Program-made: the position numbers and the translations under genes
The notes under the pieces: generated by a model
What the model saw: only the letters and a program-made list of their open reading frames with translations
Told to the model about the DNA's origin: nothing
Databases searched by the model: none
Part shown: positions 1,199 to 19,344 of the stretch, in pieces
Layout: the number at the start of each line of letters is the position of its first letter
Position numbering within the stretch: position 1 is the stretch's first letter
NCBI RefSeq assembly: GCF_013839425.1
Contig: NZ_JACDNP010000005.1
Location: 62,001-126,000 of the forward strand
DNA from: Halorhabdus salina
GTDB lineage: Archaea; Halobacteriota; Halobacteria; Halobacteriales; Haloarculaceae
Length of the DNA: 64,000 nt
Direction of reading: 5' to 3'

Positions 1199-2179
1199 TT
1201 ACTCGTCGGTTTCAGACCCTGATCCAGATTCAGCACGGGGATCAGGCAAGTCATAGGAGATGCCAGTGAGAGTGACTGAAACGTCCCACAGCTCCCTAGC
1301 GAGAGTTTCGTCGTACGATCGATCACTGGAGCGCTGGATCTCGGGGGCTCCGCGCATGTTCAACAAGCCGCCAGGACCGACGTAGTCTCCCCCAGTCACC
1401 TCCGAATCGGTTGCAGCCCGCACCATCGGCAATGCGCCTTTGGCCGCAGATTGTGCAAAGACCACGTTCGCTACTTTCATGAGCCAGAGGCGGACTCGTG
1501 AGCCGGATTGTTCAGGCCCGCGTCGCTGGAGGTTGGTCGCAGCGTATCCCGGATGACAGGCAACGCTCGTGATCTCGGCGTCGGCCGCCTGCAAACGACG
1601 GTCGAGTTCGTAGGCGAACAGCACGTTCGCGAGTTTCGACTGGGCGTAGGCGTCGAACCGATCGTAGGACTGCTCGCCCTGGAGGTCGTCGAAGTCGATC
1701 TCCCCGCGTTCGTGCAGGCCGCTACTCTGGGTGACGACCCGACTCTGTCCGGGCGTTTCCTCGAGTTTGTCGAGCAGCAGGCCAGTGAGGACGAAGTGGC
1801 CGAGGTGATTGACACCGAACTGCATCTCGAATCCGTCGACGGTTTCGCTCCGCGGGATTGCCATCACGCCGGCGTTGTTGCAGAGAACGTGGAGTTCCGA
1901 ATAGTCTGCTTGCACCGTCTCAGCGAACGCGCGGACGCTGTTGAGGTCGGCAAGGTCCAGTTTCTCGATCGAAAGTGTGGGCTCTTCGACCGTGTTGCGT
2001 ATCTCTTCACGGGCCGAACGAGCGCGATCGAGATCGCGACAGGCCATGATAACGTGGGCACCGTGGGCCCCAAAGGCCTTCGTCACCTCGAAGCCGATCC
2101 CGCTGTTGGCCCCCGTGACGAGGACTGTCCGACCGGATTGATCGCCCATCGCGCCAGGGTCCCAGGAATCCGAACTCAT
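1199..2179 (-). CDS. Short-chain dehydrogenase/reductase
   Basis: A 326-aa Rossmann-fold oxidoreductase of the classical/extended SDR family, close in layout to retinol-dehydrogenase-like proteins. The NAD(P)-binding motif TGANSGIG is at about residues 22-29, NNAG at 101-104, catalytic Ser at about 152 and the YxxxK pair at Tyr178/Lys182, so the active site is complete. The reaction is reversible oxidation of an alcohol to a ketone or aldehyde; the substrate cannot be told. The ATG at 2179 is chosen over one nine codons upstream because it leaves a short ordinary N-terminus. It runs convergent with the radical SAM gene, 29 bp away, and is probably monocistronic. Confidence 0.85.
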   Translation of the reverse strand: MSSDSWDPGAMGDQSGRTVLVTGANSGIGFEVTKAFGAHGAHVIMACRDLDRARSAREEIRNTVEEPTLSIEKLDLADLNSVRAFAETVQADYSELHVLCNNAGVMAIPRSETVDGFEMQFGVNHLGHFVLTGLLLDKLEETPGQSRVVTQSSGLHERGEIDFDDLQGEQSYDRFDAYAQSKLANVLFAYELDRRLQAADAEITSVACHPGYAATNLQRRGPEQSGSRVRLWLMKVANVVFAQSAAKGALPMVRAATDSEVTGGDYVGPGGLLNMRGAPEIQRSSDRSYDETLARELWDVSVTLTGISYDLPDPRAESGSGSETDE

Positions 2180-2253
2180 CACCAGAAAATGGAGCGTGTC
2201 GGGCATAAATCTCTGCTCTCGCCGCGTTCACACTGGCTGCTGAAGTGATTCAG

Positions 2254-2466
2254 TTACGTATTCCAGCGGACGGTCTCGATTTCTGTCCGGTCGTCACTCG
2301 CGACGACGGTTCCAACCTGGTCGCCGTCAGCGTAGTCGTCGACGCGGATCCGGTTGTACCCCTCGGTGACGATTTCACGGACGTCGGCCGCGAGGTCGTC
2401 GGCCTCCTCGACTCCCAGCCGGTTCTTTCCACCGATCTCGCGGACGACGATCGGATATTCAGGCAT
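2254..2466 (-). CDS. Small conserved haloarchaeal protein, function unknown
   Basis: A 70-aa acidic protein beginning MPEYPIVVREIGG, with no Cys cluster, membrane segment or signal peptide. It has the Asp/Glu-rich composition and codon use of its neighbours and alternating hydrophobic/charged stretches (IRVDDYADGDQVGTVV) that suggest a small alpha/beta fold. It sits between the SDR (stop-to-start gap of about 75 bp) and the divergent Mqo-like gene. I do not recognise a family; the reading frame is convincing from composition alone. Confidence 0.6.
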   Translation of the reverse strand: MPEYPIVVREIGGKNRLGVEEADDLAADVREIVTEGYNRIRVDDYADGDQVGTVVASDDRTEIETVRWNT

Positions 2467-2589
2467 CTATCTGGGCCTACGAGAGTGCTATTCAAGGGTC
2501 TGTCGTGATGCTGGCGACCCCACTGGCGTCTTGAGGCATTCCGTTCCGGTGACCGGCGACTCAAGTGTGGCACTCACCTCCACCGGGGC

Positions 2590-3933
2590 ATGGACGGCGA
2601 ATACGATCTCGTGATCGTCGGCGGCGGTATCAGCGGGGCTGCACTCCTGTACACAGTCGCGAAATTCACGGACATCGAGTCAGTCGCTCTCTTCGAGAAG
2701 GAGCCGGAGATCGCGGCGATCAACTCCCACCACACGAACAACTCCCAGACGCTGCACTTCGGGGACATCGAGACCAACTACTCCCTCGAAAAGGCCGAGG
2801 AGGTCAAGGCAGGCGCCGAGATGGTCGCCGGCTATCTGGAGACCAATGATCCTGACCGCGAGATGCACGCCAAGCGCTCGAAGATGGCGCTGGCCGTTGG
2901 CAAGGAAGAAGTCGACCGACTCGAAGATCGTTACCACGAGCAGGGTTTTGGCGACCTCTTTCCGAAACTCGATGCCATCGACCGCGAGGAGATCGCGGCG
3001 ATCGAACCGAAGGTCGTCGACGGCCGCGAGCCGGACACCGAAATGCTCGCCCTGCAGACGCCCGATGGCTACACGGTCGACTACGGCGAACTCGCGACGG
3101 ACTTCGTCCGTCGTGTCGAAGATGAAGATGGCGTCGACGTTTTCACGGGGACGAAAGTCGAAAAAATCCACGAGACTGGCGATGAATTCCTGATCGAGAC
3201 CGAGCGCGGATGGTACGAAAGCGAGGCGACGGTCGTCGCCGCTGGCTCTCACAGCCTCCAGATCGCCAAAGCGATGGGCTACGGCGAGGATATGTCGCTG
3301 CTCCCGGTTGCGGGGAGTTTCTTCGTCGCCGAGGACGGGATGCTCAACGGCAAAGTGTACACGCTCCAGATGGCCAAACTCCCCTTCGCGGCAGTCCACG
3401 GTGACGCCGAGGTCCACGATCAGGGACTTACCAGGTTCGGCCCGACGGCGAAGGTCGTCCCGGCCTTAGAGCGCGGGCGACTCTCGACAGTTCGGGACTT
3501 TTTCGACGTGTTCAAACTCTCGCCGGATTCGGTCCTGAGCTACGCGAATATCCTCGCCGACCGTGTGCTGTTGCCCTACGTCCTCGAAAATCTCGTCTAC
3601 GACCTGCCAGTAGTCGGGAAGCGCGCCTTCCTGCCCCACGTCCGGAAGGTCGTCCCGACAGTCCAGGCCGACGACATCGAGCGCGCGAAAGGCTACGGTG
3701 GCGTCCGCCCACAGATCGTCGACACCGACGCCAAGTCACTGGACATGGGCGAGGCCAAAATCACCGGCGACGGGATTGTGTTCAATATCACCCCCTCCCC
3801 TGGTGCCTCGACGTGTCTGCAGAATGCGATGCGGGACGCCGAGCAACTGACCGAGTGGCTCGATGTCGAGTTCGACGACGCGGCGTTCCGGGCGGCGACG
3901 ATCGACCACTTCCCGCGCGGATCGGATACGTAG
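2590..3933 (+). CDS. FAD-dependent oxidoreductase, malate:quinone oxidoreductase-like
   Basis: A 447-aa flavoprotein. The FAD-binding Rossmann motif GGGISG is at residues 11-16, followed by a FEKEP stretch that matches the ribose-binding end of the fold. The segment HTNNSQTLHFG and the following NYSLEKA resemble the conserved N-terminal half of Mqo, which oxidises malate to oxaloacetate and passes electrons to the quinone pool at the membrane. There is no signal or transmembrane segment, as expected for a peripheral enzyme. The resemblance is clear in the N-terminal 80 residues but weaker later, so another 2-hydroxyacid could be the substrate. It is transcribed alone. Confidence 0.75.
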   Translation: MDGEYDLVIVGGGISGAALLYTVAKFTDIESVALFEKEPEIAAINSHHTNNSQTLHFGDIETNYSLEKAEEVKAGAEMVAGYLETNDPDREMHAKRSKMALAVGKEEVDRLEDRYHEQGFGDLFPKLDAIDREEIAAIEPKVVDGREPDTEMLALQTPDGYTVDYGELATDFVRRVEDEDGVDVFTGTKVEKIHETGDEFLIETERGWYESEATVVAAGSHSLQIAKAMGYGEDMSLLPVAGSFFVAEDGMLNGKVYTLQMAKLPFAAVHGDAEVHDQGLTRFGPTAKVVPALERGRLSTVRDFFDVFKLSPDSVLSYANILADRVLLPYVLENLVYDLPVVGKRAFLPHVRKVVPTVQADDIERAKGYGGVRPQIVDTDAKSLDMGEAKITGDGIVFNITPSPGASTCLQNAMRDAEQLTEWLDVEFDDAAFRAATIDHFPRGSDT

Positions 3934-3984
3934 TCCTCCCCAGAGCGCGCCTGGAAACACATCATTCCCCGACCGGCGTCACTG

Positions 3985-3990
3985 ATTTAT
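3985..3990 (+). promoter_or_regulatory. TATA-like box of rhomboid gene
   Basis: The short AT-rich hexamer TTTATC lies 24-29 bases before the ATG at 4014 in otherwise G+C-rich DNA. This spacing fits an archaeal TATA element driving a leaderless mRNA, and it supports 4014 as the start rather than any codon upstream. Confidence 0.5.
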
Positions 3991-4013
3991 CGGCCTGGCC
4001 CGTTGGCTCGCCC

Positions 4014-5738
4014 ATGTCCGCGTCGCTGGCCGTCGTCGTTCCCGCCGCACTCGACGTACGAGGGCTGGCAGAGAGTATCCCGTTGCAGATGTGGCAAGCG
4101 TTCCTGATCGCCAGCGTGCTGTTTTCAGTCGGCGTGCTCTATCGGGTCGTCCAGCCCGGTGGCCGCTGGGGACAGCGACTCCGCTCGCGGTTCGTCCTCG
4201 GCGTCCCGTGGGGAACCGTGTTGGGTTTGAGCGTCGTCCTGGGCGTCTACTTTTTCGTCCAGGGTGGACTCGCCCATCGGTTCGATCCCGTCAATCTCCC
4301 CTTCCGTGCTACCTCCTACGCCTACCCGCTGGGCGTGGTGCTGGCTGGGTTTTCCCACTTCGGGTGGGGGCACTTGCTCGGGAACCTCCTTTCGGGACTC
4401 GTCTTTGGCTCGATCGCCGAGTACGGCTGGAGTCACTACCCGACAGATCGAGGGGGCCACTCGTTCGGTTCGTGGCTGACCAATCCCTTCGTCAGGATCG
4501 GTCTCTTCTTCGTCGGGATCATCGTCGCCGGTCTCGCGACGGCGGCCCTGTCCTGGGGACCACTCATCGGCTTTTCCGGTGTCGTCTACCTGCTGGCTGG
4601 CGTCGCACTCGTCTTCTATCCCATCACCACGATCGTCGGCATCGTCGCCTGGCCTCGCCTGTGGCACCTCTTCAGCGCGTTCAACGACCCGCTGCAGATC
4701 GCCGAACCGAGCGTGGGCTATTCGGGCGTCGGGTTCGCGGGCACCGCCGTTCAGGGCCACGCCTTTGGCTTTCTCATCGGTGTGTTGATCGGGGCCGCGA
4801 TCCTCCATCGGCGTCGCCGAGCGGCGAGTCCGGGCCGCATCTGGTTTGCGGCAATGATCTACACCGTGGCAAACGAGCTCTGGAGCATCTTCTGGTACCT
4901 CGGTAATAGCCAGTATATCCGCTTTCGGACGCTCGGCACGATGCTTCTGTTCGCGCTTGCGGGATTGATTGTACTCGTCGTGGCCGGGTCGGACCGATCG
5001 CTTTCGGATCGCGTTCCCGGAAGCGACGACCGTTCAATGCCGATCCCGTCCGGACGGCAGGTCGCGGCCGGGGTGATCCTATTTTCCCTCGTATTGATGT
5101 CGGTGGTCGGCGTCGCGATCAACCTCTCGGCGCCCTCGGGAGCGGATTTCTCTGACGATAGCATCGAGGTCCGGGACTACGAGATTGCCTACGTCCAGAA
5201 TGTGACCAACCAGCAGATCGCCGTCGTCGACCTGCCCCTGCTCGATCAGGTGACGAACGTTCGGACCAGCGGCGTCGTGGTCTATAGCGAGCAACGCCGA
5301 CTCTGGCATCAGGTCATCAGCGAGAGTAATCTGGAATCTCGGGGCAGCGGCCGCGTGTTAGTCGGCGGCGTCGGGTGGCGAGAGCCAGTTTACGCGTACC
5401 GATCCGGGTGGGAAGTCGTCGGCGGGGACGTCACCTATCAGGTGTTCCTCCGTCCCGAGAGTCGGGAGCCGAAACTGGTCCACACGGCTGATCCGGCGAT
5501 TGCCGACGTCATCCTCGCCAACCGAACCGTCGCTATCCGATCCGGAACGGACACCTTCGAGGTGGTCGTCAGGCGTGACAATCAGACGCTCGATATCGGC
5601 CGGTTTCCTTCGAACGGCAACAACGTGACCGTCGGCGGCATTACGTTCGAGCGGGCAAATCAGAACCTGTATGCGTCGGTCGACGGCACCGCACTGCGGA
5701 TTGCGCAGCGACGAATCCCGCCAACGCGACGACGATAA
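4014..5738 (+). CDS. Rhomboid-family intramembrane serine protease with C-terminal domain
   Basis: A 574-aa polytopic membrane protein. The rhomboid core shows HFGWGHLLGN (His115, His120, Asn124), the catalytic serine in GFSG (Ser188) and the catalytic His in QGH (His249), so a cleavage-competent dyad is present. Rhomboids cut transmembrane segments of other proteins within the bilayer. After further membrane helices (last about residues 345-365) there is a hydrophilic region of about 200 residues with several N-x-T sequons, presumably extracytoplasmic and beta-rich. Such an extension is unusual beside the minimal six-helix rhomboid and may bind substrates or cell-surface material. It has its own TATA-like box and appears monocistronic. 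Confidence 0.88.
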   Translation: MSASLAVVVPAALDVRGLAESIPLQMWQAFLIASVLFSVGVLYRVVQPGGRWGQRLRSRFVLGVPWGTVLGLSVVLGVYFFVQGGLAHRFDPVNLPFRATSYAYPLGVVLAGFSHFGWGHLLGNLLSGLVFGSIAEYGWSHYPTDRGGHSFGSWLTNPFVRIGLFFVGIIVAGLATAALSWGPLIGFSGVVYLLAGVALVFYPITTIVGIVAWPRLWHLFSAFNDPLQIAEPSVGYSGVGFAGTAVQGHAFGFLIGVLIGAAILHRRRRAASPGRIWFAAMIYTVANELWSIFWYLGNSQYIRFRTLGTMLLFALAGLIVLVVAGSDRSLSDRVPGSDDRSMPIPSGRQVAAGVILFSLVLMSVVGVAINLSAPSGADFSDDSIEVRDYEIAYVQNVTNQQIAVVDLPLLDQVTNVRTSGVVVYSEQRRLWHQVISESNLESRGSGRVLVGGVGWREPVYAYRSGWEVVGGDVTYQVFLRPESREPKLVHTADPAIADVILANRTVAIRSGTDTFEVVVRRDNQTLDIGRFPSNGNNVTVGGITFERANQNLYASVDGTALRIAQRRIPPTRRR

Positions 5739-18770: not shown

Positions 18771-18845
18771 AGCGGGATGGGATAGCCAGGAGATTCCGGC
18801 GGGCTCATAACCCGCAGATCGGTAGTTCAAATCTACCTCCCGCTA
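18771..18845 (+). tRNA. Initiator tRNA-Met (CAT)
   Basis: A 75-nt cloverleaf. The acceptor strands are AGCGGGA and TCCCGCT with discriminator A at 18845. The anticodon arm is closed by GCGGG/CCCGC around loop CTCATAA (anticodon CAT), with the three G:C pairs typical of initiators, and the T arm reads GGTAG-TTCAAAT-CTACC. The A1:T72 end pair is also an initiator feature, and the T loop begins TTCAAA as in archaeal initiators. The CCA end is not encoded. Its 3' half is repeated twice just downstream (see repeats). Confidence 0.97.
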
Positions 18846-18877
18846 TGTTCTGTCGCTCACAAATTCGTGAGCGACGA
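18825..18877 (+). repeat. Direct repeat copy 1: tRNA-iMet 3' end plus hairpin
   Basis: This 53-nt stretch covers the last 21 bases of the tRNA gene and the 32 bases after it. It is repeated base for base at 19062-19114, 237 bp downstream. The downstream half is a perfect hairpin (18852-18860 pairs with 18867-18875, loop AAATTC), which may act as a processing or termination signal. Confidence 0.9.
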
Positions 18878-18888
18878 AATCGAAATGA

Positions 18889-18900
18889 GTAGATTTGAAC
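18889..18900 (-). repeat. Inverted copy of tRNA T-arm sequence (1)
   Basis: GTAGATTTGAAC is the exact reverse complement of the T-arm segment GTTCAAATCTAC. It faces the direct copy at 18932-18955, so the two could pair into a long hairpin enclosing about 35 bases, which themselves hold an AAACGC/GCGTTT stem. Confidence 0.75.
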
Positions 18901-18931
18901 GAGAGAAACGCGAGCGAAGCAAGCGTTTTGC

Positions 18932-18955
18932 GTAGTTCAAATCTACCTCCCGCTA
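18932..18955 (+). repeat. Direct repeat copy 2: tRNA-iMet 3' 24 nt
   Basis: This repeats the last 24 bases of the tRNA gene (T arm and acceptor strand to the discriminator A) without a D or anticodon arm. Unlike copies 1 and 3 it is followed by different sequence (CTTCTCAGCG). It looks like an attachment-site scar rather than a tRNA gene. Confidence 0.85.
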
Positions 18956-19019
18956 CTTCTCAGCGAAACAACGGCACAGAGGTTTATCTCTGCGCCATTC
19001 TCGCTGTGCTGTCGCTGTC

Positions 19020-19030
19020 GTAGATTTGAA
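19020..19030 (-). repeat. Inverted copy of tRNA T-arm sequence (2)
   Basis: GTAGATTTGAA is an 11-base inverted match to the T arm, facing the third direct copy at 19059. The pairing of inverted plus direct copies therefore occurs twice in the same order. Confidence 0.7.
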
Positions 19031-19058
19031 GCAGGGAGTGTAGCGGAGCGGAACGACC

Positions 19059-19114
19059 GTGGTTCAAATCTACCTCCCGCTATGTTCTGTCGCTCACAAA
19101 TTCGTGAGCGACGA
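19059..19114 (+). repeat. Direct repeat copy 3: tRNA-iMet 3' end plus hairpin
   Basis: The first 24 bases match the tRNA 3' end with one mismatch (GTGG for GTAG); from 19062 to 19114 the match to copy 1 is perfect, including the 32 bases of downstream hairpin. The original tRNA flank is thus present twice, as expected if an insertion or duplication separated it. Confidence 0.88.
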
Positions 19115-19344
19115 CGTGCTTTTGATCTACCGGTAGAGTACGCTCTACCGAGCTTTGGTACCGAAAATTGGGGCTTTTCGGGATGACGAGAGAGTGCCCG
19201 ACTCTCGAACCACCTCACTTCGCTCGTCAAGACAGCTTTTTGCCGGTCGATTGGGGCCGACGGCCCAGCTGACAATGCGAACTGACGCTCTGGGTCCGTG
19301 GGCAGAGAGGGTACCGATAGGTATCCGACGCAGTAAATCGGTGG

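Follow-up and report, generated by a model that had tools for sequence, protein, structure and literature searches.

In the window, by which we mean the whole 64,000-nt stretch of DNA analysed here, a tRNA-Met(CAT) gene is followed by two further copies of its own 3' end (Table 1); the gene is identified as the initiator by its A1-U72 pair and by the GGG/CCC pairs of its anticodon stem, both read from the sequence. The 24-nt tail of this gene (18822-18845) was matched at 18932-18955 (100%) and 19059-19082 (96%), with tRNA positions 54-73 repeated exactly in both, and each of the two copies was preceded by an inverted 11-mer of the T-arm. In the window, the 21-nt tail occurred three times at up to three mismatches, as compared with 0.00 expected and none in 100 shuffles, while the inverted 11-mer and its direct counterparts occupied five sites at up to one mismatch, as compared with 0.32 expected by chance. 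Both of the inverted/direct pairs, furthermore, constitute the stems of stable hairpins (DNA z = -5.4 and -6.4; 0 of 200 shuffles as good). The preliminary description of this DNA had claimed three direct tail copies and two inverted T-arm copies, the latter ahead of copies 2 and 3, and also a longer stretch with a hairpin common to copies 1 and 3. All of these are indeed present, the common stretch amounting to 56 nt, of which one is mismatched, with a 24-nt hairpin inside it and an offset of 237 bp, and together they make up two complete units of a larger repeat family in the order alphaA-betaB-alpha. The two units, of which the betaB one is also present in the genomes G143 and G075, contain no genes, and the terminal H1 is the distal, probably oldest end of the array. 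A 110-aa ORF (RFEPRSFRS...) that traverses the units on the minus strand (18943-19275) is probably spurious, and similar ORFs may be annotated behind other haloarchaeal tRNAs.

Table 1. Features of the initiator tRNA locus, in window coordinates
Feature	Position	Strand	Remarks
Initiator tRNA-Met (CAT)	18771-18845	+	tRNA positions 54-73 (18826-18845) are the first tail
Unit 1, putative cassette (110 bp)	18826-18935	+	Tail TTCAAATCTACCTCCCGCTA, H1 (alpha), inverted T-arm and H2 core (type A); based on the repeats; unit also in relatives
H1 hairpin of unit 1	18846-18888	+	GTCGCTCAC-AAATTC-GTGAGCGAC; z -5.9; H1 covariation
Inverted T-loop and T-stem 3' strand (GTAGATTTGAA)	18889-18899	+	Left arm of hairpin H2-1
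H2 core, type A	18900-18935	+	GC-GAA-GC apical loop
Unit 2, putative cassette (127 bp)	18936-19062	+	Second tail, H1 (beta), inverted T-arm and H2 core (type B)
Second tail copy, exact	18936-18955	+	Right arm of hairpin H2-1
H1 (beta) spacer of unit 2	18956-19019	+	Based on folding test
Second inverted T-arm copy	19020-19030	+	Left arm of hairpin H2-2
H2 core, type B (GCAGGGAGTGTAGCGGAGCGGAACGACCGTGG)	19031-19062	+	Also behind tRNA-Ser of the same genome (L002, C19), with the own arms of tRNA-Ser
Third tail copy, exact from T54	19063-19082	+	Right arm of hairpin H2-2
Terminal H1 (alpha)	19083-19114	+	Same type as in congener G195 at the corresponding place

In general terms, a unit consists of the tRNA tail (positions 54-73), the hairpin H1, the inverted T-loop and T-stem, the hairpin core H2 and then the next tail. 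The direct copy comprises the tRNA from position 53/54 to position 73, and the inverted copy approximately 54-63; the sequence at 49-52 goes with the unit and not with the tRNA. Segments from tail to tail had a median of 108 bp, and the length between tails was confined to a narrow range (87-133 bp for the 10-90% interval). Behind tRNA-Arg(tcg) in the genome of the window (G000), two units are separated by 2.5 kb with a Nudix-like ORF (C21:46684-49224; L111, approximately 1684-4224), possibly a gene-bearing insertion into the array; gene-carrying cassettes were nonetheless rejected, as this interval and those of 1 kb in G187 look like later insertions.

Beyond what the preliminary description had in view, about 40% of all tRNA genes are followed by units of this type, which fit the respective tRNA in each case. 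When all tRNAs of G000 and two congeners were searched, with the loci fetched singly and a tail copy defined by no more than 3 mismatches in 20 within 880 nt, copies were found behind 18 of 41, 15 of 40 and 15 of 40 genes, respectively, while the tails of other tRNAs matched the same stretches at 0-0.35%. Exact inverted arms followed 13, 4 and 8 genes in the three genomes (0.5-0.8% in the control), and no tail copies were found upstream of tRNA genes in G000, the only genome checked for them. Also, where the T-stem of tRNA-iMet reads GTGG/CCAC instead of GTAG/CTAC, the change is carried by the tail copies and by nearly all of the inverted copies.

The units extend far across the haloarchaea. 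An exact match to the pattern of inverted arm, spacer and tail followed tRNA-iMet in 30 of the 392 genomes of the order, and at least one tail copy was present at 22 of 27 haloarchaeal iMet loci, which were fetched by similarity to the window region instead of by the unit pattern and, coming from the best-scoring matches, represent a non-random sample. Named genera with units include Natrinema, Haloterrigena, Halostagnicola, Halostella, Halobellus, Halopiger, Halobacterium, Halococcus, Halosimplex, Haloferax, and Halorussus. The strict unit pattern, which in this taxonomic survey covered the H2 part of the unit only, was found in 21 of 26 haloarchaea versus 0 of 132 other Halobacteriota. At tRNA-Gly(tcc) and tRNA-Arg(cct) of the congeners (L121, L125, L160, and L165), a second kind of module was seen, in which a perfect hairpin precedes the acceptor part of the tail alone (CTCACTCCCGGCCGGCGCA), with neither the T-loop nor the inverted arm. 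Three Haloferax iMet loci (L213, L230, and L241) contain duplicated iMet genes parted by a single N, which look like artefacts of short-read assembly.

The occupancy of tRNA genes differs among close relatives. In the comparison of G000 with G195 and G075, G000 alone had units at the genes for Ile, Ala(cgc), Gly(tcc) and Tyr, G195 alone at those for Lys(ctt) and Arg(cct), and G075 alone at those for Ala(ggc) and Arg(gcg). At tRNA-Gly(tcc), where G195 and G075 have no unit, these two genomes have in common the sequence directly behind the tRNA, a recognisable part of which follows the unit in G000. The order of units is also permuted: alphaA-betaB-alpha in the window corresponds to betaB-alphaA-beta' in G143, and in Haloferax the cassette kinds T and S are arranged as T, TT, TS, ST, and TST. 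In H. gibbonsii, the strains LR2-5 and ARA6 are nearly identical in the sequences flanking a plasmid-borne iMet gene on either side and have wholly different cassettes between the same two tails. As a point against the cassette explanation given below, combinations of H1 and H2 are sometimes hybrid, indicating exchange also at the inverted arm or homologous recombination between repeats. Tail copies were exact in 64, 34, and 20% of cases at ranks 1, 2, and 3 from the tRNA, respectively; fresh copies thus adjoin the tRNA. The repeats are therefore not the old and static ones, unchanged in all relatives, that the preliminary description had considered as the opposite case. Its proposal of serial integration and loss is borne out if cassettes are what is gained and lost, given the varying occupancy among congeners and the cassettes exchanged between two conspecific strains, but fails for ordinary integrative elements, as described below.

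The exchange of short, gene-less cassettes between close relatives indicates a family of mobile cassettes not described before, which is probably moved by site-specific recombination. As the best explanation, we tentatively consider it quite possible that 18826-19114 is an array with two members of a haloarchaeal family of mobile cassettes that are short, devoid of genes and anchored to tRNAs, and that a tyrosine recombinase inserts them at the T-loop. The structure of the unit, its tRNA specificity, the covarying hairpins, the polymorphism, the exchange between strains and the decay with distance are demonstrated, and mobility with them; the crossover at the T-loop, the folded single-stranded intermediate and the identity of the recombinase are what we infer.

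The main rival to mobile cassettes is a function as RNA, which the preliminary description had raised as a tandem RNA family: the units would be elements of the tRNA 3' trailer, with H1 and H2 formed in read-through transcripts that serve in tRNA processing, in termination or as sponges, and the turnover would be a by-product of recombination between repeats. Indeed, H1 and H2 covary strongly; 94% of the cells in H1 were paired, two-sided changes occurred in 8 of its 10 pairs (8 of 19 in H2), and its covariation was 0.513 versus 0.219 +/- 0.020. The units also fold strongly as RNA, and their hairpin motifs lie downstream of tRNA genes on the tRNA-sense strand, given that the apical motif GA-NN-GNA-NN-GA was found 88 times in 158 segments (1.2 +/- 0.9 in shuffles) and 4 times on the other strand; its density was 5.2 per kb in units versus 0.03 per kb elsewhere in the window. 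Apical GNRA tetraloops are, however, depleted (43 versus 69 +/- 7 expected), and the presence of the units is erratic, with many single tRNAs unit-free in some congeners and with different units in conspecific strains. A known RNA family was rejected, since the search of Rfam gave no family match for the unit, only tRNA and sub-threshold chance matches to miRNA. Compensatory changes were searched for in decayed H2 outer stems and were absent, the decayed arms fitting the tRNA better than their partner; lasting selection on the outer stem thus has no support, which weighs against mobile cassettes as well as against RNA. On G-C stems, GNA triloops are known to give DNA minihairpins of exceptional stability (PMC4686876), and the GNA apical loops of the units hint at folding as single-stranded DNA but do not prove it. 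The frequency of G-U pairs was dropped as a discriminator between RNA and DNA, because it is only 2-4% even in the tRNA stems of the same genomes. Overall, we regard a trailer RNA as unlikely, if still deserving of attention.

Improbable as well is the idea that ordinary integrative elements (SNJ2-, pNOB8- or HF2-like) were serially integrated at the tRNA 3' end and then lost, with the units as their scars. The 3' ends of haloarchaeal tRNAs are indeed targets of such elements, and G000 itself carries one of about 28 kb (C20:51400-79700; L112 and L113) with several tyrosine recombinase genes, including the integrase at C20:51438-52469, between tRNA-Ala(ggc) and an older cassette array. This SNJ2-like element, however, has duplicated only its 14-bp att core (CCCCGCCGAGTCCA), in which the T-loop, the inverted arm and H2 are all missing, and the units are found on the far side of its attR; the repeat of a unit, in contrast, starts at T54 and adds the inverted arm. 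Since integration of the SNJ2 type leaves only the 14-bp core, simple att scars are excluded for the units, and the preliminary description was correct in arguing that they do not explain the order inverted-then-direct occurring twice. The narrow unit length and the conserved architecture are also unlike random remnants of deletion. A phage origin was similarly ruled out, with no match to the type B and AGTCGCAG-type units in 50,697 phage records.

Purely local copying appears more doubtful still. The tail would be duplicated, and the inverted copies made, by replication slippage or by template switching at the palindrome of the T-arm, with homologous recombination shuffling them, and both the inverted and the direct arms fit the local tRNA; in the window, copy 1 has an H1 sequence identical to that of copy 3 over 32 nt, as local duplication would also give. 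Such copying would not, however, lead to the insert types A, B and AGTCGCAG, which reappear at other tRNAs and in genera far apart, the arms alone being changed; type B, for example, is found behind both iMet and tRNA-Ser, in each case between the arms of the local tRNA. Non-autonomous single-strand transposons of the IS200/IS605 type, similar to the PATEs common in Haloquadratum (PMC3119063), which would account for the hairpin-rich ends and the strand polarity, were rejected as very improbable, since Y1 transposase is absent from the unit-bearing genomes G000, G143, G024 and G072 and since PATEs make no target duplication, whereas the units are flanked by repeats of about 20 nt.

Returning to mobile cassettes, we suppose that a cassette would begin with T54 of a tail copy and end with the G53 that precedes the next copy, and that a tyrosine recombinase would exchange strands at the T-loop (G^TTCAAAT). 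The incoming cassette would supply its own tail, so that the tRNA stays intact while the former tail is displaced downstream; each distal tail would then be a retired 3' end of the tRNA, which subsequently decays. Such an insertion would explain why each copy fits its own tRNA, having once been the 3' end of that tRNA, and would also account for the decay of distal copies and for the boundary at 53/54. The inverted T-arm could pair with the T-arm of the tail to form the outer stem of a folded site, in a layout comparable to that of the integron attC, and the site of a circular cassette might thereby become foldable by itself, as attC sites are; insertion would perhaps proceed through folded single strands, as in integrons. 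This mechanism leaves unexplained how a moving cassette acquires the arms of a new tRNA.

As for the recombinase, no PF00589 match was detected near the array (C21, 80.8 kb), the nearest on this contig being at 183 kb. A single-copy XerA/C-like tyrosine recombinase was found in 26 of 26 haloarchaea versus 0 of 132 other Halobacteriota (E <= 1e-20); in G000, its gene lies outside the window on the minus strand (C21:183085-184125; L259:1086-2126) and is followed by a DUF5805 gene, a neighbour seen in all six genomes compared. This core protein of haloarchaea is a candidate for the recombinase of the cassettes, for which its distribution in common with the units is weak support, because the agreement is at the level of a clade and any haloarchaeal hallmark would have such a range. 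In its widest form, which we regard as possible but rather doubtful, the system would be integron-like and run by the host: the core tyrosine recombinase would insert folded single-stranded microcassettes into the T-loops of tRNA genes, nearly every tRNA gene would be an "attI," the cassettes would resupply the 3' ends, and the arrays would be dated records of the ends replaced.

We found no earlier description of these tRNA-anchored arrays in the open-access literature; they are described neither in a review of archaeal tyrosine recombinases (PMC8371274) nor in the papers on the mobile repeats of Haloquadratum (PMC3119063), on tRNA fragments as integration scars (PMC9897764) and on a palindrome behind Methanopyrus tRNA genes (PMC5217627). 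Across a whole class of archaea, tRNA genes that are essential and single-copy appear to undergo repeated replacement of their 3' ends by cassettes. If this is true, it would represent a cassette system in archaea to which no counterpart is known from bacteria and a new way for tRNA genes to evolve in concert with mobile DNA; it would also account for a large part of the "GAGCGAAGCGAG" hairpin sequence in the intergenic DNA that follows haloarchaeal tRNAs and provide markers for strain typing. Some caution is appropriate in annotation, because tail copies and spurious ORFs behind tRNAs can pass for integration scars or genes.

Among known systems, CRISPR arrays are alike in form only, with a repeat-spacer layout and fresher copies near one end; the spacers of the units are structured and common to several loci, and the repeat is a tRNA tail. 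XerA/dif involves a host tyrosine recombinase acting on a dyad site, and our candidate protein is XerA/C-like, but there is one resolution site per chromosome and no cassettes, as opposed to the many sites per genome of the units. The small mobile repeats of Haloquadratum, MITEs and PATEs are likewise short, hairpin-rich and dispersed with no transposase gene, whereas the units are arranged in arrays downstream of tRNA genes, with direct and inverted copies specific to the tRNA. SNJ2-type elements also use tRNA 3' ends and a tyrosine recombinase and restore the tRNA after insertion, but are kilobases in size, possess their own integrase and a 14-bp core, and lack the inverted T-arm and H1/H2. 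With integron arrays, the units have in common the tandem cassettes behind a fixed anchor, the boundary at G^TT, the shuffled order, the youngest-looking copies beside the anchor, and an imperfect hairpin with a variable terminal part at the 3' end of each cassette; H2 has outer arms, a covarying inner stem and a variable tip and is thus similar to attC in layout, though not in consensus. For recombination of the units via single strands, as with attC, the indications are indirect, namely the apical motif on one strand and the GNA loops. Unlike integron arrays, however, the units carry no genes, have no adjacent integron integrase and reside in an archaeal host, and their anchor is a tRNA gene, which the arms fit and which is represented many times in a genome. 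The arrays are thus akin to cassette arrays or to small mobile repeats, and there is a real chance that they are a kind of their own.
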